The notes under the pieces are model-generated. The model was given only the letters and a program-made list of their open reading frames with translations, searched no databases and was not told the origin of the DNA. Of a stretch of 64,000 nt of DNA, positions 10,570 to 36,363 are shown in pieces. The stretch is from Prolixibacteraceae bacterium. GTDB taxonomy: Bacteria; Bacteroidota; Bacteroidia; Bacteroidales; Prolixibacteraceae. The translations under genes were made by a program, and so were the position numbers. Location of the stretch: positions 118,601-182,600 of the forward strand of contig JAFLKN010000022.1 of assembly GCA_019163175.1 (NCBI GenBank), read 5' to 3'. Each line of letters begins with the position of its first letter. Positions within the stretch are counted from its first letter, which is position 1.

Positions 10570-10585
10570 AAAAATCAGATATAAC

Positions 10586-12265: not shown

Positions 12266-12289
12266 TCACTAATTAAAAATTATTATCGT

Positions 12290-14066: not shown

Positions 14067-14141
14067 ATGATTACTTGGGAGTTCTCCCGATTAATTGGGA
14101 CGGGCTATCTGACCATTAAAAAACAAATTGTTGAACGATGA
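14067..14141 (+). CDS. Possible 24-residue leader peptide ORF
   Basis: ATG at 14067 follows AAAGGAGA, one of the few good Shine-Dalgarno sequences in the window. The frame encodes MITWEFSRLIGTGYLTIKKQ plus four residues and stops in TGA at 14139-14141. That stop overlaps the ATG of the next mini-ORF (ATGA). No homology is recognised. It may be a translated leader or chance. Confidence 0.25.
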   Translation: MITWEFSRLIGTGYLTIKKQIVER

Positions 14142-14254
14142 AAATAATTCGATTTTGGCAAAATAAGGAATTAAAACTTATGCTTACGGAATGGTTTCTG
14201 ATTCTATTGTCAATTATAGTTATTCTGATAATCTTATATATCATTCTCCTATGA
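14138..14254 (+). CDS. Possible 38-residue single-pass membrane peptide
   Basis: ATG 14138 overlaps the stop of the preceding mini-ORF (ATGA). The product starts MKIIRFWQNKELKLMLTEWF and ends in 18 almost wholly hydrophobic residues, so it would be a short single-span membrane peptide. It ends before the next gene's start and is in a different frame. AT-rich sequence makes such frames easy to find by chance, so this is only a candidate. Confidence 0.25.
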   Translation: MKIIRFWQNKELKLMLTEWFLILLSIIVILIILYIILL

Positions 14255-14280
14255 ACATCTCCTCTCATAATAGTATTAAG

Positions 14281-15012: not shown

Positions 15013-18000
15013 ATGAAACAACTGTCGTTAAAGATATTTTTCCTTTTTACAGTTTTAGCTGTTTTGGCTGGAAATGCTCATTCTCAGGCAAAATTCAAAC
15101 TGATTGCCCCGCAAAACGGGATGACAATCACCAACAACATGCCCAATCTTTCGTGGCAGAAAACCGATTGCGATCACTACGAAATCTGGATCGATGGCAT
15201 TAAAATGGGAAATGTTCCTTCAACTCAAAATGCATACGTTCCTTTCCCCTTATCCTTCGGAAAGCACAACTGGAAAGTGGTTGCTGTTAATTCAAAAGAA
15301 AGAAAGCAATCGAATACTCAGGAAATAAACATTAATGATGCTCCTCTTTCTGATGTTCCGGAAAGTTCGCAGCTCATTCGTGAAGGCTGGAAAGTAAAAT
15401 CGTCTGCTGATGTTGGCATGAACGGTGCAAAACTTTCAGGATCAGGAGTCAATACAAAAACATGGGCAAACACAAGTCTTCCGGCTACAGTTTTAACCGC
15501 ACTGGTTCGAAACGGAATTTACCCCAATCCCTATATCGGAACCAATAATATGCTGATTCCTGACATCAGCGACGAATACAACAAAGATTACGACCTGCAG
15601 AAATACAGTCACATCAAAAACAAAAATCCCTGGAAACAGCCCTACTGGTTTAGAAACGAATTTATTATACCCGAAAATTTATCCGGAAAACACCTTTGGC
15701 TGAATTTTGGCGAAATCAATTACAAGGCACAGGTTTGGCTGAATGGCAAACTCGTTGCCGATACCACCGAAATGATCGGGATGGAGCGAACTTTTCGGTT
15801 TGAAGTAAGTTCAGGAATAAAAAAAGGTGGCAAAAACATACTTGCAATAGCAATCTGGCCACCCAATCACCCGGGCAAACCCGCCATCGAACCGCTGACT
15901 CCACTGGCCGATCCGGGTCAAAATATGGCAGACGGACAAATCAGTCACGATTACACCAAATGGGATGTAATGGGCTGGGACTGGCAACCAGCCATTCGCG
16001 ACCGCGACATGGGCATCACAGAAGATGTGTTTCTGACAACGACTGACGATATTGAATTCGACAATTTATATGTGACTTCCAACCTGAATTTGCCCGATAC
16101 CACCACTGCCGAAATTACTGTTTCAGCTGATCTGGTTAATCATTCAGAGAAGGAACAGGAAGGTGTGGTGAAAGTTGTTGTGAAGAATGGCAACGACGAA
16201 TTTGTTTTTGAAGAAGCATATAAAATTGCAGCAAAATCGACAAAATCATTTAGTTGGGAACCATCGAACCAAGAATTACTCCGGATACAGAATGCCAAAC
16301 TGTGGTGGCCTTTTGGTTACGGACAACAAAACCTCTATACGATAAGCCTTTCAACCGAAACCAAAGCGAATGACAAAGCCACCATTTCCGAAACTTTTGG
16401 TATCCGGAAAGTAGAAACCTACATCGGTGTTAAAGAACGGGTTTATAAAATCAATGGGCGCGAAATTTACCCGAAAGGCGGCAATTGGGTGATTGATATG
16501 ATGCTGAACTGGAATGCCGCACGTTACGAAAAAGAAATTCTTCTCACTCGAAACGCCAACCTGAATATGCTCCGGGTTTGGGGACCTACAGGTGTTGCAC
16601 CAAAAGCTATGTATGAAGCTGCCGACAAATACGGCATCCTGATTTGGCAAGATTTTCTGAATGATTTCTGGGGAACGTTTAAAAACACTCCAGGATTTCA
16701 ACCAGAAATTTCGCTTTACGAAAAAGCCACCATTAGCATTGTGAAGAAATTGAGAAACCATCCGTCGCTGGTCATCTGGTGTGGTGGAAACGAAGGCGTC
16801 AATCCGCGTGAAGAGCTAATTGTGAATACTATTCTGAAGAAATACGACAACCGCGACTCGCGCCATTACCTGAAACGATCTGATGGAGACGGCTTGCACG
16901 GTGGCGGTCCCTACCATACGCTCGAACCAAAGGATTATTTCACTCACCCAAAGCTGAATGGATTCAGCAGTGAAATCGGTCCGAGCGGCATTCCACCGAT
17001 GCAAAGCATGGAAAAATTCATGCCCGAAATGGGCAAAACCTGTGCGCCGGGAAGGTTTCCGCTCGATGGTGTATGGGCTTACCACGATGCAAACAACTGG
17101 CCCGGAAATGACACCCGTAAATTCAGTTCGTACGACGATATGCTGCGCAATTATTACGGAGCGCCTGACACTTCTGTAGTCGAAAAGGGAGTTGAAAACT
17201 ACATCGAAAAGAGTCAGCTCATCAACTTCGATGTGTATCGCGCAAGCATCGAATCGATTAACCGGCAGTTGTGGTCGAATGCCAGTGGTATTCTGCTCTG
17301 GAAATCGAATTCGAGCTGGCCAAGCATTACCTGGCAGGTTTACGATTGGTACCTACAGGCCAATGCCGGTTTTTACGGCGCTAAAAAAGCAGGCGAGGCT
17401 GTTCATATTCAGCTGAACCGTGACGACCGTAGTGTGTCATTCCTGAATCTTCTCAACCAGTCCCTTTACGACATCAACATTTCGTCGATACTTTATGATA
17501 CCGACCTGAAAACGGTTTGGAGCGATAAAAAGCAAATAACCATTGGGGCAAACGCCACTTTGAATTCAGGAATTACAGTTCCGGAAAGCAAGAATGTAGC
17601 ATTCCTGAAGCTGATTGCTACGGATGTTTCTGGCAAAGTGCTGGCTGAGAATTTTTACTGGCTGAATGAAAGTAACAACTTCAAAGCTTTGAATAGTCTG
17701 CCGGAACCCAGTCTTGAAATTGCAGTCAAACTCATTTCCACAGAGAAAACGCACAAGTATCAGGTGGCTGTTAAAAACACAGGCAATTCAGTGGCTTTTA
17801 TGCTGAATCTGAAAATGGTTGGTAAAGATTCGAAACAGGAGATTTTGCCAGCTTTCTGGAGCGACAATTATCTGTGTATGCTGCCCGGAGAAAGCAAAGT
17901 GCTTGAACTTGAAATCATGAATGACGACTTGATTGAAGTGCCGGTGCTGGAGTATTCAACTTATGGAAGCAGTAAAAAAACAGTTCAGAAGATTAAATAA
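15013..18000 (+). CDS. GH2-family exo-beta-mannosidase/glucosaminidase-like enzyme
   Basis: 995 residues, periplasmic by its signal peptide (1-25). An extra Ig/FnIII-like domain (about 27-110) precedes the GH2 core. The core has a jelly-roll sugar-binding domain (about 120-330, PYWFRNEFIIP and INYKAQVWLNGKLVAD), an immunoglobulin-like domain, and a TIM barrel with NLNMLRVWGP. The acid/base is Glu594 (WCGGNEG) and the likely nucleophile Glu654 (GFSSEIGP). The ARYEKEILLTRNANLNMLRVWG pattern is that of the beta-mannosidase / exo-beta-glucosaminidase branch of GH2. With GH26 and GH5 in the same operon, hydrolysis of beta-mannosides from the non-reducing end is the best guess. A glucosaminidase or other exo activity cannot be excluded from sequence. 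Confidence 0.85.
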   Translation: MKQLSLKIFFLFTVLAVLAGNAHSQAKFKLIAPQNGMTITNNMPNLSWQKTDCDHYEIWIDGIKMGNVPSTQNAYVPFPLSFGKHNWKVVAVNSKERKQSNTQEININDAPLSDVPESSQLIREGWKVKSSADVGMNGAKLSGSGVNTKTWANTSLPATVLTALVRNGIYPNPYIGTNNMLIPDISDEYNKDYDLQKYSHIKNKNPWKQPYWFRNEFIIPENLSGKHLWLNFGEINYKAQVWLNGKLVADTTEMIGMERTFRFEVSSGIKKGGKNILAIAIWPPNHPGKPAIEPLTPLADPGQNMADGQISHDYTKWDVMGWDWQPAIRDRDMGITEDVFLTTTDDIEFDNLYVTSNLNLPDTTTAEITVSADLVNHSEKEQEGVVKVVVKNGNDEFVFEEAYKIAAKSTKSFSWEPSNQELLRIQNAKLWWPFGYGQQNLYTISLSTETKANDKATISETFGIRKVETYIGVKERVYKINGREIYPKGGNWVIDMMLNWNAARYEKEILLTRNANLNMLRVWGPTGVAPKAMYEAADKYGILIWQDFLNDFWGTFKNTPGFQPEISLYEKATISIVKKLRNHPSLVIWCGGNEGVNPREELIVNTILKKYDNRDSRHYLKRSDGDGLHGGGPYHTLEPKDYFTHPKLNGFSSEIGPSGIPPMQSMEKFMPEMGKTCAPGRFPLDGVWAYHDANNWPGNDTRKFSSYDDMLRNYYGAPDTSVVEKGVENYIEKSQLINFDVYRASIESINRQLWSNASGILLWKSNSSWPSITWQVYDWYLQANAGFYGAKKAGEAVHIQLNRDDRSVSFLNLLNQSLYDINISSILYDTDLKTVWSDKKQITIGANATLNSGITVPESKNVAFLKLIATDVSGKVLAENFYWLNESNNFKALNSLPEPSLEIAVKLISTEKTHKYQVAVKNTGNSVAFMLNLKMVGKDSKQEILPAFWSDNYLCMLPGESKVLELEIMNDDLIEVPVLEYSTYGSSKKTVQKIK

Positions 18001-18492: not shown

Positions 18493-20016
18493 ATGAAATT
18501 TACCAAACAAATAGCACTTTTTCTGACCGGAACCGCACTTTGGATTTCACCGGCATTTGCTCAAAAAGAAAAGTCAAAATCCAAAAACGATGCCAATTGG
18601 CCAATCATTGTCCGCAAAGGCGATCAGCTATTCGAAGGCGATAAACCTTTCCGTTTTCTTGGGATGGCAGCACCCAATATTCAGGCCAACGAAAATCAGG
18701 TCAGGGTCGACCGCACCAACCGTTTTCCCGATGATTACGAAATCAGCGATATTTTAGATGGAATCCACCGTACAGGTGGACGAGCAACGCGCACGTTTTC
18801 ACTATCAGTTTTCCATCCTGACGATAAAGGAATGCCGGTTTATTTTACCGGGCATCGACAGTACAATGAGGAAGCATTTCAGTGCCTCGACCGTGTCATC
18901 GCGCTGGGGCATAAATACGATGTGCGCATGATTATTCCGTTCATCGCTTCACAGTCGTTCGCAAGTGTTCGAGGAGTGGACGAATTTTCAGCACTGGCCG
19001 GAAAACCCAAAGGATCGTTCTGGACCGATCCGGAGCAAAAAGCCGATTTTAAGCATTTTCTCGACTTCATCCTGAATCGAAAAAACACGGTGAACGGCAT
19101 TATCTATAAAAATGACCCGGCTATTCTGGCCTGGCAGTTGGGCAACGAGTTTGGCAGCTATCCGGGAGACCGTTGCCTAAAATACGACGAATGGTCTCCC
19201 AAAATTCTGGAATGGAGTCTCGAAATGGCGGCGTATATTAAATCGGTTGACCCGAATCACCTGATTATGGAAGCCGGTGGTGCCGACCGTGAAAAACTAA
19301 TTGCTGATCCGAACATTGACGTAATCAGCGACCACTTGTACGAATACTGGAATAAAATGAGCGGGAACCCGTGGCGTTTATCTCCGATTGCACTCGAATC
19401 GTATGCCCAGTGCAAAGGCCGCAAACCACTGATGGTCGATGAGTTTGGCCTTGGCACTACCGAAAATATCAGGGAACTGATGAAGACCATCCGCGAATCA
19501 GGAATTGTTGGCGGACTGATGTGGAGCATCCGCAGTCACCGGCGTGATGGAGGCTGGTACTACCACAACGAAGGTGGCACACCGGTCAATTCTTTTCATG
19601 TTCCCGGTTTTTCAGCCGGTTTTACTTACGATGAAGTCCGTTTGCTCCAGTTGCTGAGGAAAGAGGCGTATCTCATTCGTAGTATCCCGGCACCCGAAGT
19701 TGAAAAACCAGCGCCCGCTCCGGTTCTTTTCCTGAAAAAAGATGGCTTTACCTGGCGAGGTGCAACAGGCGCAGCTTTTTACACTATCGAACGTGCTGAA
19801 TCGCCCAAAGGTCCGTGGAAAGTATTGGCTACCGGATTGGAAGATTCGGTGCTTGCTGAAGTCGCCAAATTTGAAGAATCGCCCGCAGGTTCCGAACCAC
19901 TTACACTTTATGCTGACGAGTGGGCCGAATCTGGGAAAACATATTACTATCGAATTAAAGGCACCAACGAGGCCGGCGATTCAGGATATTCCGAAGTTTT
20001 AAAAGTTCAGAAATAA
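18493..20016 (+). CDS. GH5-family mannanase-like glycoside hydrolase
   Basis: 507 residues with a signal peptide (about 1-23). A TIM barrel spans about 35-400. The acid/base is Glu219 (AWQLGNEFG) and the nucleophile Glu317 (LMVDEFG). HLYEYW and GGLMWSIRSHRRDGGW contribute aromatic subsites, which suits GH5_7-type mannanases/mannosidases; the subfamily is not certain. The last about 100 residues (FTWRGATGAAFYTIERAESP to YYYRIKGTNEAGDSGYSEV) form a fibronectin type III domain. It lies between the GlcG-like gene (23 bp) and the aldo/keto reductase (10 bp). It probably acts on beta-manno-oligosaccharides in the periplasm or at the outer membrane. Confidence 0.8.
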   Translation: MKFTKQIALFLTGTALWISPAFAQKEKSKSKNDANWPIIVRKGDQLFEGDKPFRFLGMAAPNIQANENQVRVDRTNRFPDDYEISDILDGIHRTGGRATRTFSLSVFHPDDKGMPVYFTGHRQYNEEAFQCLDRVIALGHKYDVRMIIPFIASQSFASVRGVDEFSALAGKPKGSFWTDPEQKADFKHFLDFILNRKNTVNGIIYKNDPAILAWQLGNEFGSYPGDRCLKYDEWSPKILEWSLEMAAYIKSVDPNHLIMEAGGADREKLIADPNIDVISDHLYEYWNKMSGNPWRLSPIALESYAQCKGRKPLMVDEFGLGTTENIRELMKTIRESGIVGGLMWSIRSHRRDGGWYYHNEGGTPVNSFHVPGFSAGFTYDEVRLLQLLRKEAYLIRSIPAPEVEKPAPAPVLFLKKDGFTWRGATGAAFYTIERAESPKGPWKVLATGLEDSVLAEVAKFEESPAGSEPLTLYADEWAESGKTYYYRIKGTNEAGDSGYSEVLKVQK

Positions 20017-21046: not shown

Positions 21047-22948
21047 ATGCCAACACGTAAATTATTTATTGGGCTGTTTATTCTTGTTTCAGTTTTCTTT
21101 CGAACCGAAACTTCAAAAGCCCAATTGTACAATCCGAATTTCAATGCTGCCGAAAACAAGGGTTCTCTGTTAAAATACCTCAACGATATTTACGGCAAAA
21201 AAATCATCTCCGGACAGATGGATGACAAATACCTCGCATACATCATTGAATCCACCGGGGGAAAATCGCCTGCCATGATGGGGTACGATTTTAATGGAAT
21301 TTGTCCGTCGCAGGGCGGAAACAATGATGCAGCAAAAGCCATCAATTGGGTAAAAATCAAAGGAGGAATTGCCCAGTTTCAGTGGCACTGGATTTCGCCC
21401 AATGCCGATGGGGACTTTTACTCGCCGAACTTCAAGCTTAGCGAAGCGCTGAACGACACCAACAGTATCTCGTACAAAAACATGATTCGCGACATTGATT
21501 TGGTGGCTGGCGAGATGAAAAAAATGAAAGAAGCCGGAGTTCCCATTCTCTGGCGGCCTTTGCACGAAGCAGAAGGAAAATGGTTCTGGTGGGGCTATTC
21601 GGGAGGCGATGCCTGCAAAAAGCTGTACAGACTAATGTACGACCGAATGGTCAATAAATTTAAACTCGACAACCTCATCTGGGTGTGGACAAGCTACGGA
21701 AAAACAAAGGAAAACTGGTATCCGGGCGACGATGTGGTGGACATGATTGTGTGGGATTATCCAGACTATTCAGCTGCGGGTTCGTGGTCGCAATACCAGC
21801 AGATGTTTGGCGGCAAAGGCAAAATGTTTGGCATAGGCGAAGACGGGAAACTGACTGATCCGGCAATACTTGCTACACAGGGCTGGCTTTATTTTCTCAC
21901 CTGGTCATATATGGTTCAGGATCCATCAGTAAAAGATGGCAAAAACCCAAAAGCCTGGCTGAAACAGGTGTATAACGATTCGCGGGTAATTACGCTCGAC
22001 AATCTGACTCCCGGACCGAAAGCCTCCGCCGGACAAAGCCAGCTTATTTTCGATACCGACGGCAACGGCACAGAAACCGTGCAGCTCGATGGCTCGGGCA
22101 GTAAAACCGACAATGGAACTATTACAGAATACAAATGGGATATCAACAATATAGAAATTGCAACTGGGGTAAAACCGCAGGTTTCGCTGCCGTTGGGATT
22201 GCATACCATCAAACTGACCATCACAACAAGCACCGGAGAAAGTAAAACATCGCAGGTAGTTATCACCATCAAAAAGCCCTCGGTTTCACTGAAAAAAGCT
22301 TACAAAGTTTCTTCCACGGAGGCAAATCTCGGGAATATTGCTGCCAATGCTGTTGACGGCAATCAGGCAACACGATGGTCGAGTGCCTATTCCGACCCGC
22401 AATGGTATCAAATCGATTTGGGAAAAAATTACGATATCAGTCAGGTGGTTATTTACTGGGAAGATGCTTCCGCAAAAAATTACAAGATCGAAACTTCGGA
22501 TGATGGCACTTCATGGAGAACAGTTGCAACAAAATTGAATATGCCAAAAGGTGCGAGAATCGATGATTTAAGCGGATTATCGGGTTCCGGAAGGTATATC
22601 AGAATGTACGGAACCGAACGCACAGGCACCTGGGGCTATTCCATTTTTGAGTTCGAAGTCTATGGAACCGAATCAGGCACAACTGGCTTGATAAATATGG
22701 ATATGCATAATCTATGGATATATCCTACCATCATCAGAAAATCAGAAAAGATGCAAATTTCTTGTCCTGGCAGTCTTTTGCCTGCAAACTATCAGATTTA
22801 CTGTCAATCGGGCCAAATCAAGAAACAAGGAATATTAACTGACACGAATAGTTTTTTGGTGATTGATCAGTCTGAAGCTGGTTTTTATTATTTCAAACTT
22901 AGGCACAATGACCTCTCAAAATCAGTAAAATTCGTTGTTGTAAATTGA
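21047..22948 (+). CDS. GH26 beta-mannanase with PKD, F5/8C and T9SS domains
   Basis: 633 residues. Signal peptide (about 1-26), then a GH26 (beta/alpha)8 barrel (about 30-315). The acid/base is Glu174 in WRPLHEAEGKWFWWG and the nucleophile Glu265 in FGIGEDGK, the two hallmark GH26 sites. Next come a PKD-like domain (about 322-408), a discoidin/F5/8 type C carbohydrate-binding domain (about 410-542, NAVDGNQATRWSS and WYQIDLGK), and a C-terminal T9SS type A sorting signal (about 550-633). It is the only enzyme in PUL 1 with a T9SS signal, so it is expected to be displayed outside the cell and to make the first endo-cut in beta-1,4-mannan. It follows the aldo/keto reductase by 30 bp. Confidence 0.93.
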   Translation: MPTRKLFIGLFILVSVFFRTETSKAQLYNPNFNAAENKGSLLKYLNDIYGKKIISGQMDDKYLAYIIESTGGKSPAMMGYDFNGICPSQGGNNDAAKAINWVKIKGGIAQFQWHWISPNADGDFYSPNFKLSEALNDTNSISYKNMIRDIDLVAGEMKKMKEAGVPILWRPLHEAEGKWFWWGYSGGDACKKLYRLMYDRMVNKFKLDNLIWVWTSYGKTKENWYPGDDVVDMIVWDYPDYSAAGSWSQYQQMFGGKGKMFGIGEDGKLTDPAILATQGWLYFLTWSYMVQDPSVKDGKNPKAWLKQVYNDSRVITLDNLTPGPKASAGQSQLIFDTDGNGTETVQLDGSGSKTDNGTITEYKWDINNIEIATGVKPQVSLPLGLHTIKLTITTSTGESKTSQVVITIKKPSVSLKKAYKVSSTEANLGNIAANAVDGNQATRWSSAYSDPQWYQIDLGKNYDISQVVIYWEDASAKNYKIETSDDGTSWRTVATKLNMPKGARIDDLSGLSGSGRYIRMYGTERTGTWGYSIFEFEVYGTESGTTGLINMDMHNLWIYPTIIRKSEKMQISCPGSLLPANYQIYCQSGQIKKQGILTDTNSFLVIDQSEAGFYYFKLRHNDLSKSVKFVVVN

Positions 22949-23060: not shown

Positions 23061-25097
23061 ATGAAAAAAGCAATTTTTATAACGATCATTCTTGTCTTCA
23101 ACGGTTTATGGTTACTTGCCCAACCAATTATTACTCCCTGGGGCAACATTAAAGGTTTCGTTGTTGATGGTGAAAAAATGAATTTCGAAACCTCTGTCCG
23201 GTCAGTTAAAACCGACTGGAGCGGATGTATCTCATCAGAAAGGTGCAACTGGCAGGGAAACCAGACTTATTCATTTTCCGGGAAGACAACCAACATGTCG
23301 CACTTTTTGCAGGCCCTGCCATTAAACTATGCCGAACAGTTCACTGAAATAGGCCAGAACTCAGTAAAAGTAGAATTATCGATAGATGCTACTGCTGAAA
23401 TCGACCAGGCAGGAACCTATTTTTGTTTCGAAATACCGGGAAGTGAATTTGTGGATGGAACGCTTGCCATTTATTCCGGAAAATCGAAAAGTGGGTCGGT
23501 CAACCTGAAATCCTCAACTCCCAACGGGAAAGCAGAATACATCCGAAAAAAAGGAAATAAAATCATCGTAAAAACAGCCAAACGCGAATATGAAGTAATT
23601 GCCGGTAACAATACGGAGATATTTGTCAAGCAAAACTTTATCGACCGTCCGGGCTATCTCAACGACCCTTTGCCAGCCAAAGCATTTGTTGCTTCAGACC
23701 CTAATCAATCCATTGCCGATTACCAGGTTTATTTTACGCTCATTCAGGGCAAGGCAAAAAATGGTGACAAAAAGAAGGTCAGCTACACATTAAATGTGAA
23801 AGGTACACCCGATAAAGAAGATGTTCAAATGACCATCGATGCGGGCAAACCAGGCAGGCCGTTTGATGGTGTGGGTAGTAATTATCGGGTAAAAGACCTT
23901 GGCCGCGACTCGATGGTGGTGAATTACTGTTTGAATAATATCCGGGTTGCATGGTCGCGTATTGAATTCAACTGGAGCGAGTGGCAATCTGGAGAAAACG
24001 AAAATCCGTTGCTGAAAGCGAGAGCAGGAAAACTTTCAAAAGCGTTTTACGAACAGATTGAAATGGCCCGCATTCTGGCTAAACGCGGGTTACCCATCAT
24101 TGTTACCGTTTGGGCACCACCTGCATGGGCTATCGACACCACCCGGCACAACAGGCAGGGATTGGAACACGACTCAAAACTTTCTTTGAACAGCAAAAAA
24201 ATTGATAAAATGTGTCAATCAATTGCCGATTACATTTCGTATTTAAAATCGGATTACGGAATTGAAATTCCTTTATTCAGTTTTAACGAAGTCGATTATG
24301 GCGTGATGGTCTATCATACTCCTGAAGAACATGCTTTTTACACGAAAGAACTAGGCAAGTATTTTGCATCGCGTGGATTGATAACGAAAATGATGCTGGG
24401 CGATACTGGTGCAGGCACCATAAGGTCGAATAAAATGGTGATTCCGGCAGTCGAAGACCCATCCATTCACCCATATATCGGGGCTGTGGCATTTCATACC
24501 TGGCACGGTTGCACAGAAGCCGATTGCAAAGCATGGGCATTATCGGCACAAAAATTAAATGTGCCTTTATTGGTTACCGAAGGTGGACCCAACTCTGCCC
24601 TGCACCGATACCCGCAATATTTTCTCGATAACGCATTTCAGTTGTCCGAAATTGATTTATACCTGAGGGTCTGCAAATATGCTCAGCCCATTTCAATATT
24701 GGAATGGCAATTGACTCCTGACTATTCGGTGCTTACAGGGAAAGGTTTATACGGCGATAATGGCCCGCTGCGTCCGACGCAACGCTTCTGGAACCTGAAA
24801 CAATTGGGTTCAACTCCTGAAGGTTCGTTTGCTATTCCGATTGAGGTTGACAAACCAAATATCACAGCAACAGCTTTTGCAGATATACTGAACGGATTGT
24901 ACACCATCCACATCGTAAACAACAGTGCAACACGCGAAGTAACCCTTACAGGTATTCCTGAACCGGTTAAATCGTTCAACATTTATGTTACCGATGCAAC
25001 TCGCGGAATGGAAAAAGTAAATACGGTAAAAGTTACCGGTGGGAAAGTTAGATTTACGATTGATGCGCAGGCCTACACCAGCCTGATGACGAACTAA
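23061..25097 (+). CDS. GH30-like clan GH-A glycoside hydrolase
   Basis: 678 residues with a signal peptide (about 1-20). The first 230 residues are an all-beta domain not assigned to a known family. A TIM barrel begins near 265 (MTIDAGKPGRPFDGVGSNYRV, resembling the GH30 opening FDGFGGSL). It carries a strand-4 acid/base Glu410 (FSFNEVDYG) and a strand-7 nucleophile Glu507 (LLVTEGGPNS). A C-terminal beta-sandwich (about 590-678) completes the GH30-like layout. Clan GH-A retaining catalysis is well supported, but the family is not certain and it may be a separate one. Its leader (112 bp) shares a 15-base run with the leader upstream of the carbohydrate-binding protein at 14281. Confidence 0.65.
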   Translation: MKKAIFITIILVFNGLWLLAQPIITPWGNIKGFVVDGEKMNFETSVRSVKTDWSGCISSERCNWQGNQTYSFSGKTTNMSHFLQALPLNYAEQFTEIGQNSVKVELSIDATAEIDQAGTYFCFEIPGSEFVDGTLAIYSGKSKSGSVNLKSSTPNGKAEYIRKKGNKIIVKTAKREYEVIAGNNTEIFVKQNFIDRPGYLNDPLPAKAFVASDPNQSIADYQVYFTLIQGKAKNGDKKKVSYTLNVKGTPDKEDVQMTIDAGKPGRPFDGVGSNYRVKDLGRDSMVVNYCLNNIRVAWSRIEFNWSEWQSGENENPLLKARAGKLSKAFYEQIEMARILAKRGLPIIVTVWAPPAWAIDTTRHNRQGLEHDSKLSLNSKKIDKMCQSIADYISYLKSDYGIEIPLFSFNEVDYGVMVYHTPEEHAFYTKELGKYFASRGLITKMMLGDTGAGTIRSNKMVIPAVEDPSIHPYIGAVAFHTWHGCTEADCKAWALSAQKLNVPLLVTEGGPNSALHRYPQYFLDNAFQLSEIDLYLRVCKYAQPISILEWQLTPDYSVLTGKGLYGDNGPLRPTQRFWNLKQLGSTPEGSFAIPIEVDKPNITATAFADILNGLYTIHIVNNSATREVTLTGIPEPVKSFNIYVTDATRGMEKVNTVKVTGGKVRFTIDAQAYTSLMTN

Positions 25098-26851: not shown

Positions 26852-28954
26852 ATGATTTTTAAACTTTTTTGCCAAAAATCCTTATTTCAGATTGCAATTT
26901 TAATTTTACTAACTGCACAATTCAACCCGGGTTTTGCGCAGCAATCAAACATCCTCATCGATGACAATTTTTCCAATACAAGCACAAACTGGAAGGAAAT
27001 CAGGCTGAACGGTGCGACTGACGGTAATTTAAAAATCGAAAATCAGTCACTCTCGGTTACCAATAATTCGAAAACCGGCGCCTATGGTTTGTATCACCTG
27101 AAGCCGGTCTCCGGAAATTTCTATGCTGAAGCTGAATTTGCTGATGAAGATGTAATTGGACTAGCTTTAATGGCAAGCAAAAACGGAGTTCCCGATGTGG
27201 CGAATTTTACCATGATTGCTGTTTCAAACCGTTCGGGAATCACTGTTATCAATCAGTATGACCGGCAAAACAATGTCGAAAATGTGCATGACCCGAAAAA
27301 AATAATTGACCCATCGCGCTACGAAGCAAAATTAGATGGCAAAACCTTTTCAGTTCCTTACAAATCAACCAACAAGAAAATCAGGATTTTACACGAATCA
27401 TTATCCAACACTTTCCACTTTTACTACGGAACTACCCTTGTAAAATGGGGAATCACCTCGAACGACTGGATGGAAGTTGCGCCGCAATACAGCTGGCTTC
27501 CGGCTGATCAGCAATACTTTGTGGCTTTGGTGGGGCATGTTGCCGAAAACCAAAAACCAAAAGCCGCCATTTTTAAAAGCTTAAAAGTTGTTCAAACACC
27601 AACCGAAGATTTCGACGACAATGCGACTGGATTTAAGGCCGTCAAACGCAATTTCTCATGGTCGGGATTCGAAGGCGATGCCACGGTGGTTACTTTCGGA
27701 AAAGAATTCGGGTACGACAAAAACATCAAATTTGTATTTTGGGACCGAGCCAACAACGCACCAGCCTGGCGATTAACTAATCAATTCCTTCTGAATTTTG
27801 AATTTTTTGAAGGTGGCGATTCGCTTTATCCGGGTTGCCACGAAGCCATGTCGGACCGGCAGCGGCATGGACAAAAAGTAACGATTGTAGAGGACAATGC
27901 AGTGCGAAAAATTATTCATTGGCATGGCATTCCGCTCAATCCGGAGTACAATTTTTCCGGCGAACATTTGAATGGCAAACAGTTCCCGTATTTCGACGAA
28001 TACTGGACTTTTTACCCTGATGGCACCGGAACGCGGCAGTTAATTGACATGCCTAACCTTGATGTGAATCATCGCCGCGGTTGGGGACCTGAAGTCATTG
28101 AACCAATGCCGATTGGTGGTTCACTGGTTGAAGCCGGAGATTTGTGCAATGCACCTGCCTTGTCGGTTTTTAATTTGACCGATACGGTGAAAACATACTT
28201 CCCTCAGCCAACAAACCGTACTTATACAAAAGATTCATGGGGATGGAACCAGATTGTTTTCGATTGCCATTTCAAGGAAAATATGCCTGATTTTTATACG
28301 GTTTACAGTCAGGATGAAGCTTATCCCGAAATCTGGCCGGGAATAAAAATCGAAACACAGATAGCCTGGCACAATACCGACCATATTTTCTCGCACTGGC
28401 CGGTGGGTCGGGAACCATACGGACAAAATGCGCAGGATTGGGGAAAAACATCGCGTTCGTATGCATCGCACAAAAACGAGGTGACGCACACTTCGCTGGC
28501 CAGCGCTGGTTTTTACGGCAAACTGGGTGTCGATTTCAACGACCATTTTCAGGTAGATGAAAAGGGCCGGAAATTCCGCAGACATGTGATGCTGGTTGGT
28601 GTTTCGAAACCTTACCAATATGACGAGGTTAAAAACCAGATTCAAACCTGGCTCGAACCGGGCATAATTACCATGCTGAACAGCGATTTTGAGTTTTCGA
28701 AAATCGACCGGATTTTCAGGAGCATTATTTTGAAATCAAACAGCAACAGCACGGAATGCAAATTCAACATCAAGCCAGATAAAAGTATTGTGAACCCGAC
28801 CTTCACCATTGAAAACTGGAAAGGCGATGATAAAGCCGAAGTTTTAGTCAACGGAAACAAAGTGGATGCAAAAATCGCCAAAGAAGGAAGCTCGTTGCTG
28901 GTTTGGATACCGGGCACTTTTAATCAGGAAACCATTCTTTTGATTCGAAAGTAA
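26852..28954 (+). CDS. Unclassified two-domain secreted PUL protein
   Basis: 700 residues with a signal peptide (about 1-29). Residues about 33-245 look like a concanavalin-type jelly roll (DDNFSNTSTNWKEI, NFYAEAEFADEDVIGLALMA). Residues about 260-620 are rich in Trp, His, Asp and Glu (FFEGGDSLYPGCHEAMSDRQ, IIHWHGIPLNP, YFDEYWTFYPDGTGTRQLID, GWGPEVIEPMPIGGS, WGWNQIVFDCHF, HIFSHWPVGREPYG). That is the feel of a catalytic domain that matches no family I recognise. A small beta-domain closes the protein (about 625-700). It is the last gene of the first transcription unit, 24 bp after the DUF5060-GH5 gene. It could be a new hydrolase or lyase for this mannan, or a glycan-binding scaffold; no function is assigned. 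Confidence 0.6.
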   Translation: MIFKLFCQKSLFQIAILILLTAQFNPGFAQQSNILIDDNFSNTSTNWKEIRLNGATDGNLKIENQSLSVTNNSKTGAYGLYHLKPVSGNFYAEAEFADEDVIGLALMASKNGVPDVANFTMIAVSNRSGITVINQYDRQNNVENVHDPKKIIDPSRYEAKLDGKTFSVPYKSTNKKIRILHESLSNTFHFYYGTTLVKWGITSNDWMEVAPQYSWLPADQQYFVALVGHVAENQKPKAAIFKSLKVVQTPTEDFDDNATGFKAVKRNFSWSGFEGDATVVTFGKEFGYDKNIKFVFWDRANNAPAWRLTNQFLLNFEFFEGGDSLYPGCHEAMSDRQRHGQKVTIVEDNAVRKIIHWHGIPLNPEYNFSGEHLNGKQFPYFDEYWTFYPDGTGTRQLIDMPNLDVNHRRGWGPEVIEPMPIGGSLVEAGDLCNAPALSVFNLTDTVKTYFPQPTNRTYTKDSWGWNQIVFDCHFKENMPDFYTVYSQDEAYPEIWPGIKIETQIAWHNTDHIFSHWPVGREPYGQNAQDWGKTSRSYASHKNEVTHTSLASAGFYGKLGVDFNDHFQVDEKGRKFRRHVMLVGVSKPYQYDEVKNQIQTWLEPGIITMLNSDFEFSKIDRIFRSIILKSNSNSTECKFNIKPDKSIVNPTFTIENWKGDDKAEVLVNGNKVDAKIAKEGSSLLVWIPGTFNQETILLIRK

Positions 28955-29285: not shown

Positions 29286-32200
29286 ATGAGAAAAACTATT
29301 CTGTTTTTATTGCTTATGGGATTTTTCATCTCAGCTTTTTCGCAAATTCAGTTACGCGGAAAGGTTGTAGATAAAAATACGAAAGAACCATTACCGGGTG
29401 TTTCAGTTGTAGTAAAAGGCACTACCATCGGAACCATTACCGATAGCAACGGTAGTTATTCAATTTCCAACGTTTCAGAAAATGCGACTTTGCAATTTAC
29501 GTTTGTAGGAATGAAATCTCAGGAAATTGCTGTTGGCGGAAAAACAAATATTGATGTAATGCTTGAAGAAGATGCCATTGGAATTGAAGAAGTGGTTGCC
29601 ATTGGCTATGGAACAATGAAAAAGAGCGATTTGACAGGCTCTGTCTCCAGAACTTCCATCGGGGATAAGGCTACTCAGAATAATACCAATCTGCTACAGG
29701 CTTTATCCGGATCTACAGCTGGTGTAAATATTCAGGCAGCTGGGCTCGCTGGTGCTGAACCAAATTTGTCGATCCGGGGAAAGACTTCACTGTCGGCAAG
29801 CGACAAACCTTTAATCGTACTCGACGGGATTATTTATAACGGCGATATTGCAAACGTTAACATTAGCGATGTCGAATCGGTTGACATATTAAAAGATGCT
29901 AGTGCAGCTGCTGTTTATGGATCAAGATCTGCAAACGGGGTATTGCTAATCACTACTAAAAAAGGAAAATCTGATAAGCCAACCATATCATTTAATATGA
30001 GCTATGGTTATCAGGACTTGACAAATAATCCGATGTCGGTTATGAATGCGGATCAATATGCAATCAGATTGGTCGATTTCTATTACCAGCAAAGTTTGTA
30101 TACCTGGTATAAAACCAAACCAACAAGTGCAACCGGAAAGCCAGTCAGACCGGATGTCACAGACCGGAATGTTGTTGCTGCCCGATTGAGAACTCAGGAA
30201 GAAAAAGATAATTATTTAGCCGGAAACGAGATTGATTGGACTGATGAAGTTACCCGAATGGCTCCCATTCAGAACTACAATCTAAGTTTTTCCGGAAAAT
30301 CAGATAGGAGCAATTACTTTGTTTCTGCCTCATATGCCAACGAGGAGGGAATTCAATTGAATGACCAATTTTCGAGATTTACCATTCACAGTAATGTGGA
30401 GAGTAAAGTGGCAAGTTGGTTAACGATCGGACTAAATGCATCCTATTCTTATCGCGACTATTCGGGTTTGGAGGCTGATTTAGGATGGGATAAAACCGGT
30501 GCAAGAGCTGCCAGTCCTTTGGCGAATAATAAGATTGGTTTGCCAAAGTACGATATGTTTCTAACAGGCGAAGCTTATATGCCGTACCCACTTAATAATT
30601 TGTATGTGAATAACAGTGATATCAGGAACAACCTATTTCTTGTTGGTAATGCCAAGGTAACTGTTCCATGGGTTAAGGGTTTAACTTATGAACTAAATTA
30701 CTCAAACACCTACTCGAACAGAAACAACAATACATTTTATCCTGTCACAACTCCGAATGGAGCGGGCAACAAGGGTCAGGCAATTAAAAATCCTTCTGAA
30801 CAGAGAAATGACATTGTAAACAACATTGTAACCTATTTAAGATCATTTGGCGATCATCAGGTAAATGCCACTTTGCTTTACAGCCGCGAAAACAGTATTG
30901 CACAAAGCTCGACGCTTAATGCACAGGGATTTGACAATGCGGTTTTAGGATACAATAACATGGGACTTGGAACTATTGCCACTGTTGCTTCAACAGCATG
31001 GGAAGAAAATAGCATTTCTTATATGGCGCGGGCGAATTATTCGTACAAAAACCGTTATATGCTTACCGGAACTGTTCGTCGTGACGGGTTCTCCGGATTT
31101 GGCGAAAATACCAAATTCGCTACATTTCCATCAGTTTCATTGGGATGGGTGGCATCTGAAGAGTCCTTCATGGAAAATCTTGACTGGATGTATTTAAAAC
31201 TCAGAACATCGTATGGTAAAAACGGGAACCAGGGAATCGGACGCTATTCCAGTTTCTCCAGAATGACCGCCAATCCATACATATATGGTTCAAATACTGC
31301 AATTTCTGTTTTCCCAAGTACACTTGGAAATGCAGATCTGGGCTGGGAAGCAACATCTTCTTTCAATGTTGGAATCGACTATGCTTTCCTCGATCAGCGA
31401 ATTTCAGGGTCGATAGATGTTTATCAGGCAAAAACGAATGATGTTTTGGTTCAAAGAACACTTCCTCCAACAACCGGATATTCAAGTGTTTGGGCAAATA
31501 TTGGCGCAATCGAGAATAAAGGTATTGAATTGGCTTTGAATACAGTTAACTTCAAGGGTCAGTTTAATTGGACAACTAACTTCAATTTCTCATTGAACAG
31601 GGATAAAATTTCCAAATTGTACGGAGGCAAAAATGATAAGGACATAGGAAATTCATGGTTTGTTGGGGAATCGATAAGTGCAATATACGATTATGAGTTT
31701 GCTGGCGGACTTTGGACCGAGCAGGAACTTTATGAAGGAAAAACTTTAGCCAACTGGTATCCGGGTCAGTTTAAATACGTCGATCAGAATACTGACGGTG
31801 TAATTGAGCCAAATGCCGACCGCAAGATCATCGGATACAAAACACCAAACTATAGGTTCAGTATCACCAATACCTTAAGCTATAAAGATTTCACTTTCTC
31901 ATTCCTGATTAACTCAATTCAGGGTGGCAACGGATATTATTTAGACGATAACTCCTCGGTAGTCAATACGCAATGGAACTCCGACAATGTTTACCGTGTT
32001 AATGCCTCTGCGGTAAGACCATACTGGACTCCGGATAATGGGGTGAATAATGCTACCGGTATTTACAATACTCCGGTTGTACATGGTGGAGTTTACGAAA
32101 GCCGCAGTTTTGTTCGCTTACAGGATGTATCATTGAGTTACAACTTCAAACCTGAATTACTGAAATCACTCAAAATTGAGTCGTGCCAGTTTTTTATCTC

Positions 32201-32312
32201 CGGAAAGAATCTTTATACCTGGACCAAATGGTCGGGATGGGATCCTGAAGTCGGAGTTAGTGACTCGCCTCTGATGAGAAATATCACTACAGGGTTCAGA
32301 CTTACCCTTTAA
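29286..32312 (+). CDS. Second SusC/RagA-family TonB-dependent transporter of PUL 1
   Basis: 1008 residues. Its signal peptide (MRKTILFLLLMGFFISAFS) is nearly identical to that of the susC at 7528, also at the DNA level. A carboxypeptidase-regulatory-like domain (about 22-100), the motif IGIEEVVAIGYGTMKKSDLTG (TonB-box region), a plug (about 115-215, VLDGIIYNGDI and AVYGSRSANGVLL) and a barrel ending in GFRLTL follow. Beyond the first about 45 residues the two transporters differ clearly, so they should take different oligosaccharides. It shares the promoter architecture of the first susC and pairs with the SusD 46 bp downstream. Confidence 0.95.
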   Translation: MRKTILFLLLMGFFISAFSQIQLRGKVVDKNTKEPLPGVSVVVKGTTIGTITDSNGSYSISNVSENATLQFTFVGMKSQEIAVGGKTNIDVMLEEDAIGIEEVVAIGYGTMKKSDLTGSVSRTSIGDKATQNNTNLLQALSGSTAGVNIQAAGLAGAEPNLSIRGKTSLSASDKPLIVLDGIIYNGDIANVNISDVESVDILKDASAAAVYGSRSANGVLLITTKKGKSDKPTISFNMSYGYQDLTNNPMSVMNADQYAIRLVDFYYQQSLYTWYKTKPTSATGKPVRPDVTDRNVVAARLRTQEEKDNYLAGNEIDWTDEVTRMAPIQNYNLSFSGKSDRSNYFVSASYANEEGIQLNDQFSRFTIHSNVESKVASWLTIGLNASYSYRDYSGLEADLGWDKTGARAASPLANNKIGLPKYDMFLTGEAYMPYPLNNLYVNNSDIRNNLFLVGNAKVTVPWVKGLTYELNYSNTYSNRNNNTFYPVTTPNGAGNKGQAIKNPSEQRNDIVNNIVTYLRSFGDHQVNATLLYSRENSIAQSSTLNAQGFDNAVLGYNNMGLGTIATVASTAWEENSISYMARANYSYKNRYMLTGTVRRDGFSGFGENTKFATFPSVSLGWVASEESFMENLDWMYLKLRTSYGKNGNQGIGRYSSFSRMTANPYIYGSNTAISVFPSTLGNADLGWEATSSFNVGIDYAFLDQRISGSIDVYQAKTNDVLVQRTLPPTTGYSSVWANIGAIENKGIELALNTVNFKGQFNWTTNFNFSLNRDKISKLYGGKNDKDIGNSWFVGESISAIYDYEFAGGLWTEQELYEGKTLANWYPGQFKYVDQNTDGVIEPNADRKIIGYKTPNYRFSITNTLSYKDFTFSFLINSIQGGNGYYLDDNSSVVNTQWNSDNVYRVNASAVRPYWTPDNGVNNATGIYNTPVVHGGVYESRSFVRLQDVSLSYNFKPELLKSLKIESCQFFISGKNLYTWTKWSGWDPEVGVSDSPLMRNITTGFRLTL

Positions 32313-32358
32313 TTATACATTCAGTAAAACTATACGGTAACTAAAAAATAAAATAACA

Positions 32359-34077
32359 ATGAAAAACTATCTATATATATTTAGGAAGAAGTACTTCTTT
32401 TCAACGGTACTGCTTACGCTTATTTTCTCCTCTTGCTCAGAAGATGTGCTCAAAGAAACTCCGCTCGATTTTCTGGCACCAGAGAATGCTTACAATACAG
32501 TGGCCGGTATTCAGCAGGGAATAAGCGGATTGCATTTTAGTGTTCGCGATGCATGGTTCAATGGCGACAACCAGGATCAACTGGCTATGCTGGTTGGAGG
32601 TTGCGGAACCGATATTGCTTTTCATGGCGAAAATCCAGGAGGTAACATTAAGCTGGTTAATTACAAAAATGAGATGACTCCTGAAAATTCAATCTTCACC
32701 TTTTTCTGGGAAAGAAATTACAGTCTGATTCAACGTGCAAACGTTTTGATCGACCGGATCAAGGTTTCCGATAAATCCATCTGGACTAGCGATGCACAAA
32801 AGAATGCTTACCTGGCCGAAGCTTTGTTCTTCAGAGCTTATGCCTATCGTATGTTGGTTTCTTTTTATGGTGATGTTCCTCTTGTAACCGAACCTACAAA
32901 ATCGGCTAAAACAGATTTTGTCAGGGCTCCCAAGGCCGATATTTATAAGCTAATGGAAGAAGATTTAACTTTTGCTGTTGCAAATTTGCCAGTTCGCGGT
33001 AAAGAAGATGCCCCCGGAAGAATTACTCAAGGCGCCGCCGGACATTTTCTGACCGAGTTGTATATTACTCAATCGAAACACCAGCAGGCCGTTGATGCAG
33101 CCTCAAAAGTTATCGACACCGGAGGTTATTCACTCATGACTCAGCGTTTCGGATCAACCCGAGATGTGTTTGGAAAAGGAGATGTATTTCTGGATCTTTT
33201 TGCTTACGGAAACCATAATTTGTCCACAAACAAGGAAGCTGTCTGGGTTATACAGATTGAACCAATCGTTACCGGTGGAGGTCAATATCCAGGTGATAGG
33301 GCATGGGGACCGGCTTACTTCAGGTTGGGTAATACGCCTGATGGAAAGACTGCATTTAGAGGCGAACTTTACAATGGTGCATACACTGGCTATTCCGATA
33401 CATTAGGTCGGCCAGTTTCATGGATTAAACCAACCAATTACACGGCCTATACCATTTGGAGAAGCGATTGGAAAAATGACATCAGAAATGCGGAGCACCA
33501 CATCAAAAGAACATTTTATTACGACAATCCGGCATCAACATACAACAAGAAAAAGATCGATTTTTCTCTTTACCCCAAAGGAACTCGGGATGCTTTAAAA
33601 GACACCTGTCAGTATATTTATCCTTACTTCCTGAAACATTCTGATCCGCTTCACCATTTTATTGAGCCTAACCGATCGGGTGGGGGTTGGACACACAAAG
33701 ACGTTTATGCAGTTCGTTTGGCTGAAACTATTCTTTTGCGGGCCGAAGCATACATTGGCCTGGGTAAGAAAGACCTTGCAGCTGCTGATATAAATGCCAT
33801 CCGGAACAGGGCAAAAGCCACACCTGTCGATCCTTCAAAAGTTGATCTCGATTATTTGCTCGACGAACGTGCCAGAGAACTTTACGCCGAAGAATGGAGA
33901 CCAATTACTTTACGACGGATGGGTAAATTATTGGAAAGAACCCGTAAATACAACAACAATCCGGTGTTCCCTGCCTGCAATATTCAGGATAACAATGTTT
34001 TATTCCCAATACCACAAAAGCAGCTCGATTTAAATATTGATGCCAAAATGGAACAAAATCCAGGGTATGCCAAATAA
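32359..34077 (+). CDS. Second SusD-family lipoprotein of PUL 1
   Basis: 572 residues with a lipoprotein signal (lipid Cys26 in LIFSSCSED). SusD signatures are LKETPLDFLAPENAYNT, YLAEALFFRAYAYRMLVSFYGDVPLV, DTGGYSLMTQRFG, VRLAETILLRAEAYIGLG, and DERARELYAEEWRPITLRR near the end, finishing MEQNPGYAK. It partners the preceding SusC at the outer membrane. Length and architecture are typical. The next gene (oxidoreductase) follows after 39 bp, which suggests one transcript. Confidence 0.95.
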   Translation: MKNYLYIFRKKYFFSTVLLTLIFSSCSEDVLKETPLDFLAPENAYNTVAGIQQGISGLHFSVRDAWFNGDNQDQLAMLVGGCGTDIAFHGENPGGNIKLVNYKNEMTPENSIFTFFWERNYSLIQRANVLIDRIKVSDKSIWTSDAQKNAYLAEALFFRAYAYRMLVSFYGDVPLVTEPTKSAKTDFVRAPKADIYKLMEEDLTFAVANLPVRGKEDAPGRITQGAAGHFLTELYITQSKHQQAVDAASKVIDTGGYSLMTQRFGSTRDVFGKGDVFLDLFAYGNHNLSTNKEAVWVIQIEPIVTGGGQYPGDRAWGPAYFRLGNTPDGKTAFRGELYNGAYTGYSDTLGRPVSWIKPTNYTAYTIWRSDWKNDIRNAEHHIKRTFYYDNPASTYNKKKIDFSLYPKGTRDALKDTCQYIYPYFLKHSDPLHHFIEPNRSGGGWTHKDVYAVRLAETILLRAEAYIGLGKKDLAAADINAIRNRAKATPVDPSKVDLDYLLDERARELYAEEWRPITLRRMGKLLERTRKYNNNPVFPACNIQDNNVLFPIPQKQLDLNIDAKMEQNPGYAK

Positions 34078-34116
34078 TCAGGAAATCTATCCAAGGCTTA
34101 TAAAAAAGGAAGAATT

Positions 34117-35433
34117 ATGGAACGAAGGAAATTTATAAAGAGCAGTTCGCTGGCAGCCGCTGGAGGTTTAACCATTCTGAACTTTCCTGTTTTTGGGAAA
34201 AATGCACCGAGTAATAAAGTGATTGTTGCAGTAATGGGCGTAAACAGTCGTGGGGCTTATCATGCCGAAAAGTTTTCCCGTATTCCGGGAGTTGAGGTAG
34301 GCTACATCTGCGATGTTGAAGACGGCGCCATCAAAAAAGGTCTGACAGCGGTGAAGGGTGCATCGCGTGTTCCCATTATCGAAAAAGACATACGTAAGTT
34401 GGTGACAAAAACGGATTTCGATGCTTTGGTGATTGCTGCTCCCGATCATTGGCATGCACCTGCAGCCCTGCTCGGGGTTTCAAACGGAAAACATGTTTAC
34501 GTTGAGAAGCCTTGCAGTCACAATCCGAACGAAAGTGAAATTCTGATTCAGGCACAAGCCAGATACGGAAAAATAATTCAGGTCGGGAGCCAGCGACGTT
34601 CGTTCCCTACTTTAATTGAAGCTGTAAAGCAGGTGCGCGCCGGATTGATTGGAAACCCATACATGGCTAAAGGCTGGTACACCAATTCGCGCAAGTCAAT
34701 AGGAATTGGCAAAGTAATCTCTGCTCCTTCCACCCTCGATTTTAATTTGTGGCAGGGACCAGCTCCCCGAAAAGATTACAAGGACAATCTGGTGCATTAC
34801 AACTGGCACTGGTTCTGGCACTGGGGAACCGGCGAGGCATGCAACAACGGGAATCATGAATTGGATTGCTGTCGTTGGTTTCTGGGTGTCGATTTTCCGA
34901 CTAAAGTTACTTCAGCAGGTGGCCGGTATGCCTACAAAGACGATTGGGAAACGCCTGATACGCAAATCGCATCGTTCGAATTTGGCGACCAGAAAACCAT
35001 TACCTGGGAGGGACGTAGTTGTAATTCATATCCGATTGAAGGCAATGGCCGTGGCTTCATTATTTATGGTGACAAGGGTACACTTGTGAATTTTGGTGGC
35101 GAAGACTACAAAGTTTACGATGCGTCGAACAAGCTTGTAAAGGAAATTAAATCTAATATGAAGGTTGATCCTAATAATACTGTAAGCGCCAGCGGTGATG
35201 CTGATTTGTACCACCTGAATAATTTTATTGAAAGCATTCGGGGTAACGAAAAGGTAACTGCGCCCATTGTAGAAGGTCACAAAAGTGTGCTAATGTGCCA
35301 TTTGGCCAATATTGCACAGCGTACAGGTTCAAGCCTGAGTACCGATCCAAAGAATGGTCACATTATCGGCAATAAACTAGCCGAAGAACTTTGGAGCCGT
35401 AACTACGAAAAGGGCTGGGAAATGAAACTCTAA
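34117..35433 (+). CDS. Gfo/Idh/MocA-family oxidoreductase with Tat-like signal
   Basis: 438 residues. The N-terminus MERRKFIKSSSLAAAGGLTI is a twin-arginine-type leader, so the folded, cofactor-loaded enzyme is probably exported. A Rossmann NAD(P) domain follows (about 33-150). The family Lys131 is in the VEKP motif. The C-terminal catalytic alpha/beta domain contains GNHELDCCRW with His247. Members oxidise or reduce sugar hydroxyls or keto groups, often at C3, and some drive redox-assisted glycoside cleavage. The gene is sandwiched between SusD and a secreted sugar isomerase-like gene, which supports a role in modifying an imported glycan in the periplasm. A strong hairpin terminator follows. 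Confidence 0.85.
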   Translation: MERRKFIKSSSLAAAGGLTILNFPVFGKNAPSNKVIVAVMGVNSRGAYHAEKFSRIPGVEVGYICDVEDGAIKKGLTAVKGASRVPIIEKDIRKLVTKTDFDALVIAAPDHWHAPAALLGVSNGKHVYVEKPCSHNPNESEILIQAQARYGKIIQVGSQRRSFPTLIEAVKQVRAGLIGNPYMAKGWYTNSRKSIGIGKVISAPSTLDFNLWQGPAPRKDYKDNLVHYNWHWFWHWGTGEACNNGNHELDCCRWFLGVDFPTKVTSAGGRYAYKDDWETPDTQIASFEFGDQKTITWEGRSCNSYPIEGNGRGFIIYGDKGTLVNFGGEDYKVYDASNKLVKEIKSNMKVDPNNTVSASGDADLYHLNNFIESIRGNEKVTAPIVEGHKSVLMCHLANIAQRTGSSLSTDPKNGHIIGNKLAEELWSRNYEKGWEMKL

Positions 35434-35441
35434 AAACAACG

Positions 35442-35478
35442 AACTGACCGGAGGCAAGACTTCCGGTCAGTTTTCTTT
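35442..35478 (+). terminator. Intrinsic terminator after Gfo/Idh/MocA gene
   Basis: AACTGACCGGA (35442-35452) pairs with TCCGGTCAGTT (35462-35472), an 11-bp GC-containing stem, followed by TTTCTTT. The next gene starts only 30 bp further on, so termination may be partial or that gene may need readthrough. Confidence 0.75.
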
Positions 35479-35508
35479 ATCAATCTATGATTTAAAAACA
35501 GTTTATCA

Positions 35509-36363
35509 ATGATTTACCGAATATCATTTTTAATTCTTCTCCTGATCGGAGTTGAATCACTTTACGCTCAAAAGAACAAACCGCTTTTCCCGCAAACACC
35601 CGGAATGGTTTCATTTACATACCGGAACAGCTTTACCAAAGATGTTTCTGCAACACTGGATACACTCCAAAAACTTGGCATTAAAGACATGGAATTTTCA
35701 AATCTTTTCGGGATGAAAGCTGCTGAGATAAGGAAAATGCTTGATGAACGCGGTATGTTTTGTTCTTCGTTCGGAGTAAGCTATCCCGATCTGACGACTA
35801 AAACCCGCGAAGTGGGCGAGAACGCAAAAATATTGGGAGCAAAGTATGTTCGCGTGGCCTATATTGCTCATGAAGGAATTTTTACCCAGGAAATGGCCAT
35901 TAAAGCAGCCGAAGACTTTAATACGGCAGGTAAAGTTCTGAAAGACGAATTTGGTATCACGTTTTGTTACCACAATCACGGATATGAATTTGTACCCTAC
36001 GAAAACGGTACACTTATGGATTATATCATTCAGAAAACCAATTCGAAATATGTGAGTTTTGAAATTGATATTTTATGGTCATTCATTCACGGACAGGATC
36101 CGGTAAAACTCATTGCAAATTATCCCGGACGTTTTAAACTACTGCACCTGAAAGACCTTCGAAAAGGTGCTGAATTAAATGCTTCAGGAGGAACTGCTGT
36201 TGAAAACGATGTGGCACTCGGTACCGGACAACTTGATATTCCTTCTATTTTGAAAGCCGCAAAAAGAGCAGGAATTAAACATTATTACATCGAAGACGAA
36301 AGCCCGGCTTATGCCAAACAGGTACCACAATCCATGTTTTACCTGAAAGACCTTAAAAATTAA
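35509..36363 (+). CDS. Secreted sugar phosphate isomerase/epimerase-like (AP-endonuclease-2 fold) protein
   Basis: 284 residues with a signal peptide (about 1-20). A TIM barrel of the xylose-isomerase/AP endonuclease 2 type: TLQKLGIKDMEFSN, GAKYVRVAYI, FCYHNHGYEF (metal-ligand region), SFEIDILW, GRFKLLHLKD, AGIKHYYIEDE. The His, Glu and Asp residues at strand ends suit a divalent metal site. Secreted members next to Gfo/Idh/MocA enzymes are known to act on keto-sugars as epimerases or lyases. Here that pairing is direct (one gene downstream), so a joint redox step on a mannan-derived sugar is plausible but unproven. It is the last gene of PUL 1. Confidence 0.75.
   Translation: MIYRISFLILLLIGVESLYAQKNKPLFPQTPGMVSFTYRNSFTKDVSATLDTLQKLGIKDMEFSNLFGMKAAEIRKMLDERGMFCSSFGVSYPDLTTKTREVGENAKILGAKYVRVAYIAHEGIFTQEMAIKAAEDFNTAGKVLKDEFGITFCYHNHGYEFVPYENGTLMDYIIQKTNSKYVSFEIDILWSFIHGQDPVKLIANYPGRFKLLHLKDLRKGAELNASGGTAVENDVALGTGQLDIPSILKAAKRAGIKHYYIEDESPAYAKQVPQSMFYLKDLKN

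Follow-up and report, generated by a model that had tools for sequence, protein, structure and literature searches.

The galactose-mutarotase-like supersandwich is a known scaffold of carbohydrate enzymes. In GH38 enzymes, LacZ and PL8, the catalytic site lies mainly outside the supersandwich, in another domain, and in PL8 a helical toroid holds most of it. In GH186, the catalytic aspartate is D388 in OpgD and D361 in OpgG. Published work on OpgD (PMC10514313) describes a supersandwich protein with glycosidase activity of its own, with D388 proposed as the general acid, D300 as the base and R359 as a partner.

The protein described here is encoded within a 64,000-nucleotide stretch of DNA, hereafter the window, and the supersandwich of its predicted model is shared with GH186 (1txk). 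It differs from GH186 in carrying an extra N-terminal jelly roll, and neither the protein nor any of 113 core domains of its family matched MdoG (PF04349); hhalign against E. coli K-12 OpgG gave 0.2%. GH186 was also rejected as a relative within Bacteroidota, since none of 148 genomes from this phylum contained MdoG. The supersandwich domains of GH38 and of the GH2 enzyme LacZ are the best fold matches to the target core, yet the target lacks their additional catalytic domain, and its core has no Bgal_small_N match (profile comparison 0.3%). GalM aldose 1-epimerase (PF01263) has the fold class in common with the core, with no profile match and an hhalign value of 0.1%; unlike it, the target is multi-domain and probably secreted. 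At the profile level, hhalign thus supports none of OpgG, Aldose_epim and Bgal_small_N as relatives of the core, all values being under 1%.

The gene and its mannan-type PUL

The coding sequence runs from 26852 to 28954 on the + strand, from ATG to stop, and encodes 700 residues. An ORF check recovered both the reading frame given in the earlier note and its four motifs, HWHG (residues 356-359), DEYWTFYPDGTG (382-393), GWGPEV (410-415) and FSHWPVGREPYG (513-524). Parts of these motifs are kept family-wide, namely (H)W357, D382-E383-Y384, Y388-P389-D390, R395 and H515-W516-P517, whereas GWGPEV and the end of FSHWPVGREPYG are confined to the closest Bacteroidota orthologues. Residues 1-30 (26852..26941, +) form a probable signal peptide, read by eye as a hydrophobic N-terminus ending in GFA before QQ and modelled with pLDDT under 60; the same by-eye reading showed no lipobox, and secretion, as claimed earlier, is likely. 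Other Bacteroidota assemblies encode full-length orthologues sharing 82%, 77% and 70% identity with the protein. The dN/dS ratio (Nei-Gojobori) was 0.067 against L020 and 0.049 against L021, the two pairs for which it could be estimated, as synonymous sites were saturated in the L022 pair. Since close full-length orthologues coincide with dN/dS values of 0.05-0.07, the sequences indicate a real gene under purifying selection.

The surrounding PUL lies on the + strand and opens with SusC, SusD and TIG-domain SusE-like genes (7528..13954, assigned by Pfam and sequence searches). These are followed by a CBM6/35-like gene, a GH2 gene resembling exo-glucosaminidase and beta-mannosidase by Pfam and best PDB matches (15013..18000, +), a gene for a small protein, a mannanase-like GH5 by Pfam, with solved mannanases as best matches (18493..20016, +), and an aldo/keto reductase gene. 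Next comes a GH26 beta-mannanase with PKD and F5/8C (CBM32-type) domains, assigned by Pfam and matching a solved mannanase with an E value of 4.7e-51 (21047..22948, +). A 678-aa unclassified protein follows (23061..25097, +), which gave no match in the Pfam search and is weakly similar to the GH30 enzyme XynC (E 5e-4); it is a second unclassified enzyme candidate. By eye, its FNEVDYG and LVTEGGP segments look like those of a clan A glycosidase. The gene immediately upstream of the target encodes a GH5-like glycosidase with DUF5060 (PF16586; 25109..26827, +), matching the PDB DUF5060 protein 9gmj with an E value of 1.7e-45 and GH5 mannanases more weakly. The target starts 24 bp past this gene, and the next SusC lies 331 bp further downstream. 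The earlier view that the gene closes a mannan operon therefore stands: it is the last gene of a tight + strand run with GH26, GH5, GH2 and DUF5060 members. Because the neighbours include GH26 and GH5 mannanases and a beta-mannosidase-like GH2, a beta-mannan-type substrate can soundly be inferred for the PUL from its gene content. Upstream, the opposite strand encodes a hybrid two-component regulator (3063-7178).

The next unit (29286..36363, +) comprises a second SusC/SusD pair followed, at 34117-36363, by a Gfo/Idh/MocA oxidoreductase and a xylose-isomerase-like TIM barrel. Genes of these two kinds often accompany 3-keto-sugar pathways, and the window genome has 15 matches to PF06439. A DUF1080 assignment suggested by these downstream genes was rejected, as the N domain of the target gave no match; against PF06439 (3-keto-disaccharide hydrolase) that domain showed no profile match and an hhalign value of 1.3%. 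A promoter and terminator scan, which was set aside, counted 3 terminators against a shuffled mean of 2.9 and 10 promoter-like sites against 5.3; a plasmid search gave no match.

Predicted domains and searches against named families

AlphaFold2 modelled the full protein from 113 aligned rows with a pLDDT of 89.1 and a pTM of 0.91. The predicted fold bears out the jelly-roll domain of the earlier note and places a ConA-like jelly roll at residues 31-250 (26942..27601, +). With VIA-align, residues 29-250 matched the C-terminal domain of GH43A (5jox), an enzyme of a xyloglucan PUL, with a Z of 17.0, CBM66 (4b1l) with 15.7 and GH16 with about 15. The ConA-like fold is common to all of these at identities of about 10-15%, about 15% for CBM66. 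In contrast to GH16, the ExDx(x)E motif is not kept, and E93 alone among the acids of that strand is invariant in the clade of the target. The N domain matched no Pfam family, CBM families included, and the protein gave no match to Laminin_G_3 (PF13385). Judged from its predicted fold, the jelly roll is probably a glycan-binding module.

As residues 29-250 took up the fold matches of the full-length model, a separate prediction was made for the core (251-700), with a pLDDT of 87.5 and a pTM of 0.92. In this model, residues 251-588 (27602..28615, +) form a supersandwich, the proposed catalytic domain. Its fold matches were the C-terminal domain of GH38 alpha-mannosidase (5kbp; Z 13.9, 4.0 A over 234 residues), LacZ (6x1q; 13.3), OpgG (1txk; 12.8, 3.7 A over 227 residues at 10% identity), a GalM-like chain (3mwx; 12.6) and PL8 (12.6). 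Because these Z values lie close together, they identify the fold without singling out a closest relative. The Trp/His/Asp-rich second domain, for which a fold search had been proposed, is thus predicted to be an all-beta supersandwich, unnamed in the libraries searched. A helix (590-601) and a small beta domain (about 605-700) complete the secondary structure of the model (28616..28951, +).

The earlier observation that no named family is recognised holds across Pfam, NCBIfam and PDB sequence searches, which returned nothing credible for the 700-residue protein; weak hits to YecM (E 0.21) and to REF6 zinc fingers (E 0.04) were put down to chance. Searched against Pfam and NCBIfam, the 113 core domains gave merely scattered matches of one to three members each, none credible, and those to Nos_propeller_2 (3 of 113) and GH57 (2 of 113) were likewise attributed to chance. 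A profile search of the 113-core alignment against the PDB yielded a single chance match (E 0.85). The profile of alignment A1 matched PDB entries mainly through its LamG part, including the ConA-like receptor domains of a clostridial toxin at E values around 0.02, which we read as a shared fold only. A viral fold library gave no usable match, and searches of open PMC papers found no description of the core family. The earlier note held that confidently matching some characterised family outside carbohydrate biology would tell against a CAZyme; such a match was sought by both sequence and fold and was not found. The scaffold and the PUL setting are therefore of known kinds, and the family itself is absent from Pfam, NCBIfam and the PDB as searched.

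The core family and the clade of the target

The target gene is no orphan. Its core belongs to a family with at least 200 members: when the GTDB genome collection was scanned, 201 of 216 pattern matches were confirmed as relatives, and the best 80 were kept, yielding 76 loci. Searches with the 700-residue protein matched 2 of 395 genomes phylum-wide and 8 of 393 order-wide; within the taxonomic family, a profile of the close clade matched 16 of 140 genomes, and the score exceeded 1100 bits in three (the window genome, G800 and G872). The relatives come from Bacteroidota, Planctomycetota, Verrucomicrobiota, Acidobacteriota, Aminicenantes, KSB1, Hydrogenedentota and further groups, almost entirely as metagenome bins whose taxon labels may be wrong in places. 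Three loci were set aside in parts of the analysis: the interrupted L023, from the same assembly as L022, was left out of alignments A2-A4; L008 was excluded, leaving 103 of 104 core references in A2 and A4; and the partial L024 was omitted from the tree and the per-domain invariance count.

A Laminin_G_3 domain precedes the core in 13 of 16 members of A1. These LamG-fused relatives belong to the same core family and share the fixed residues of the window clade. They differ from it in the N domain, which is unmatched in the window clade, and the two N-domain profiles are not alignable (0.7%). Two to five copies of the core family are carried by 18 of 71 loci (L025-L095). Tandem arrays of four to five members each were seen at L047 3375-15089, L043 9041-17970, L062 3652-11248 and L040 1814-17914. 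Some single ORFs contain two core-profile matches (L041 11225-13885, L043 11147-13891, L047 3375-6269 and L064 8369-10993), of which the first is shorter and covers the beginning of the core; a spacer that is LamG-like where read and then a full core follow. Among the proteins flanking the wider family, of which 100 of 227 were drawn at random, without a control set and with those over 900 aa cut to 900, the commonest include sulfatases (7), alpha-L-fucosidases (4) and GH2 enzymes (3).

Ten loci, L020-L029, match the target over most of its length at 82-31% identity (L024 in part). In a tree of 112 cores, built by a quick method and containing long branches, the window protein and eight clade members split off as nine rows with a branch support of 100, and the four Bacteroidota rows lie close together. 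Bacteroidota members of this clade stay beside mannan-PUL genes. In L020, L021 and L024, the direct neighbour of the target orthologue is a homologue of the 678-aa protein (66-69% identity). A DUF5060 gene 81% identical to that of the window is also present in L021, with a CE2-type esterase in the same run; GH5 genes adjoin the orthologue in L022, one of them 50% identical to the window GH5; and in L020 the downstream SusC and SusD are kept at 83 and 78% identity. L024 is labelled a Bacillota soil bin, but identity to the window reaches 69% for its 678-aa-type gene and 73% for its target gene; because these are so close to Bacteroidota genes, this locus is probably misbinned. In the distant part of the clade, a sulfatase lies downstream of the L026 member and a BD-FAE esterase upstream of the L027 member. 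In L029, a Clostridia bin from red deer gut, the ORF of the clade member (9836-14692) spans 1619 aa and continues past the core into cadherin-like and cohesin domains; about 5 kb upstream, a GH38-like gene was noted by eye. No gene with an obvious glycan role adjoins the orthologues in L025 and L028.

In the alignment of 113 cores, every row having the column keeps E320 and E331, and all but one keep D335. R352 is present in 113 of 113, Y388-P389 in all rows, and W297 and W357 are nearly fixed. Outside the window clade, D382, E383, D390 and R395 are kept at 95-98% and H515 at 97%. Several of the fixed residues fall, in the model, on consecutive strands (342-348, 353-359, 380-387 and 393-400), with H515 in a later loop. 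Fixed acids together with Arg, His and Trp make a pattern typical of an active site, and some of them may be structural. Within the clade, the core has 64 invariant positions out of 338, the N domain 28 out of 220 and the C domain 8 out of 112.

Proposed function and alternatives

We put at about even the chance that the target is secreted and degrades glycans, most likely as a glycoside hydrolase, and that it represents an unnamed family built on a known scaffold. The catalysis, substrate and mechanism proposed here draw on the mannan-type neighbours, a fold of carbohydrate enzymes that includes the stand-alone GH186 and mutarotase types, and the fixed polar set. This reading is favoured further because the core is the most invariant domain in the clade and because the distant members L026, L027 and L029 lie near glycan genes. 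Against it stand the profile comparisons, the supersandwiches of GH38, LacZ and PL8, which are not the main catalytic domain there, and the context of L025 and L028. The target has the status of a candidate new CAZyme. Acting in the periplasm or at the surface after secretion, it would dock on a glycan through its jelly roll, with the C-terminal beta domain packed behind the core. The lone supersandwich would hold the active site, comprising E320, E331, D335, R352, D382/E383 and H515. Together with the GH26, GH5 and GH2 enzymes of its PUL, it would most likely hydrolyse a glycosidic bond in beta-mannan-type hemicellulose bearing acetyl or galactosyl decorations, or in oligosaccharides derived from it. 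A pair of fixed acids is proposed for this step because D388 and D300 are the proposed acid and base of the OpgD supersandwich and because the fixed residues of the cores form a pattern typical of an active site; we infer hydrolysis over elimination.

Extended to the whole family, the proposal is more tentative and in our view falls somewhat short of even: a new CAZy-level catalytic family, spread over many phyla with 200 or more members and expanded in tandem arrays, built on a lone supersandwich with its own catalytic set, in which the window clade would serve beta-mannan-type hemicellulose and other clades sulfated or fucosylated glycans.

Both types of beta domain also occur in glycan-binding proteins, the supersandwich being accessory in GH2 and GH38, and a SusC/SusD pair lies downstream of the target and, in L020, of its orthologue. 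The target could thus be a non-catalytic PUL protein whose two beta domains capture polysaccharide for SusCD. We consider this unlikely, as acids, Arg and His fixed over 113 diverse rows exceed what binding usually needs, and as the core is better conserved within the clade than the jelly roll.

Distinctly less probable is a polysaccharide lyase that would eliminate uronate-containing glycans with a core resembling the beta half of PL8-type enzymes. PL8 hyaluronate lyases align over model residues 5-430, beyond the span of GalM and LacZ, and sulfatases lead the sampled neighbours of the wider family. However, only the beta half is matched and the helical toroid is absent from the target; there is no uronate-type enzyme among the window PUL genes scanned, and no lyase profile in Pfam, Lyase_8 included, matched the target or the 113 cores.

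The matching GalM-like chains raise the idea that the target converts released sugars as a mutarotase or epimerase, which we regard as very doubtful: the aldose-epimerase profile fails to match, a polymer is the likelier substrate for an extracellular protein with an added jelly roll, and the window genome already has three Aldose_epim matches. A chance position in the PUL without any carbohydrate role, which the unrelated-looking genes around the L025 and L028 orthologues might suggest, is highly improbable given the conserved neighbours of the Bacteroidota orthologues, the fold and the glycan genes near L026, L027 and L029.

Should the enzyme proposal be right, a family that is unnamed in Pfam and NCBIfam, matches no solved structure by sequence and has at least 200 members in one genome collection would be a new group of glycan-degrading enzymes, on a scaffold for which few catalytic examples stand alone. 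It would also give a function to tandem clusters whose LamG-type proteins are all that can now be recognised. The window protein lends itself well to testing this, as its PUL points to one substrate class and its fixed residues give clear mutants. The window genome additionally carries one distant paralogue of the target (L098 8791-10776); in its neighbourhood (L098 6618-17580) we noted by eye a DUF4038-like gene, a GH94-like phosphorylase, a beta-lactamase-like gene, an MFS transporter and other glycosidase-like genes.
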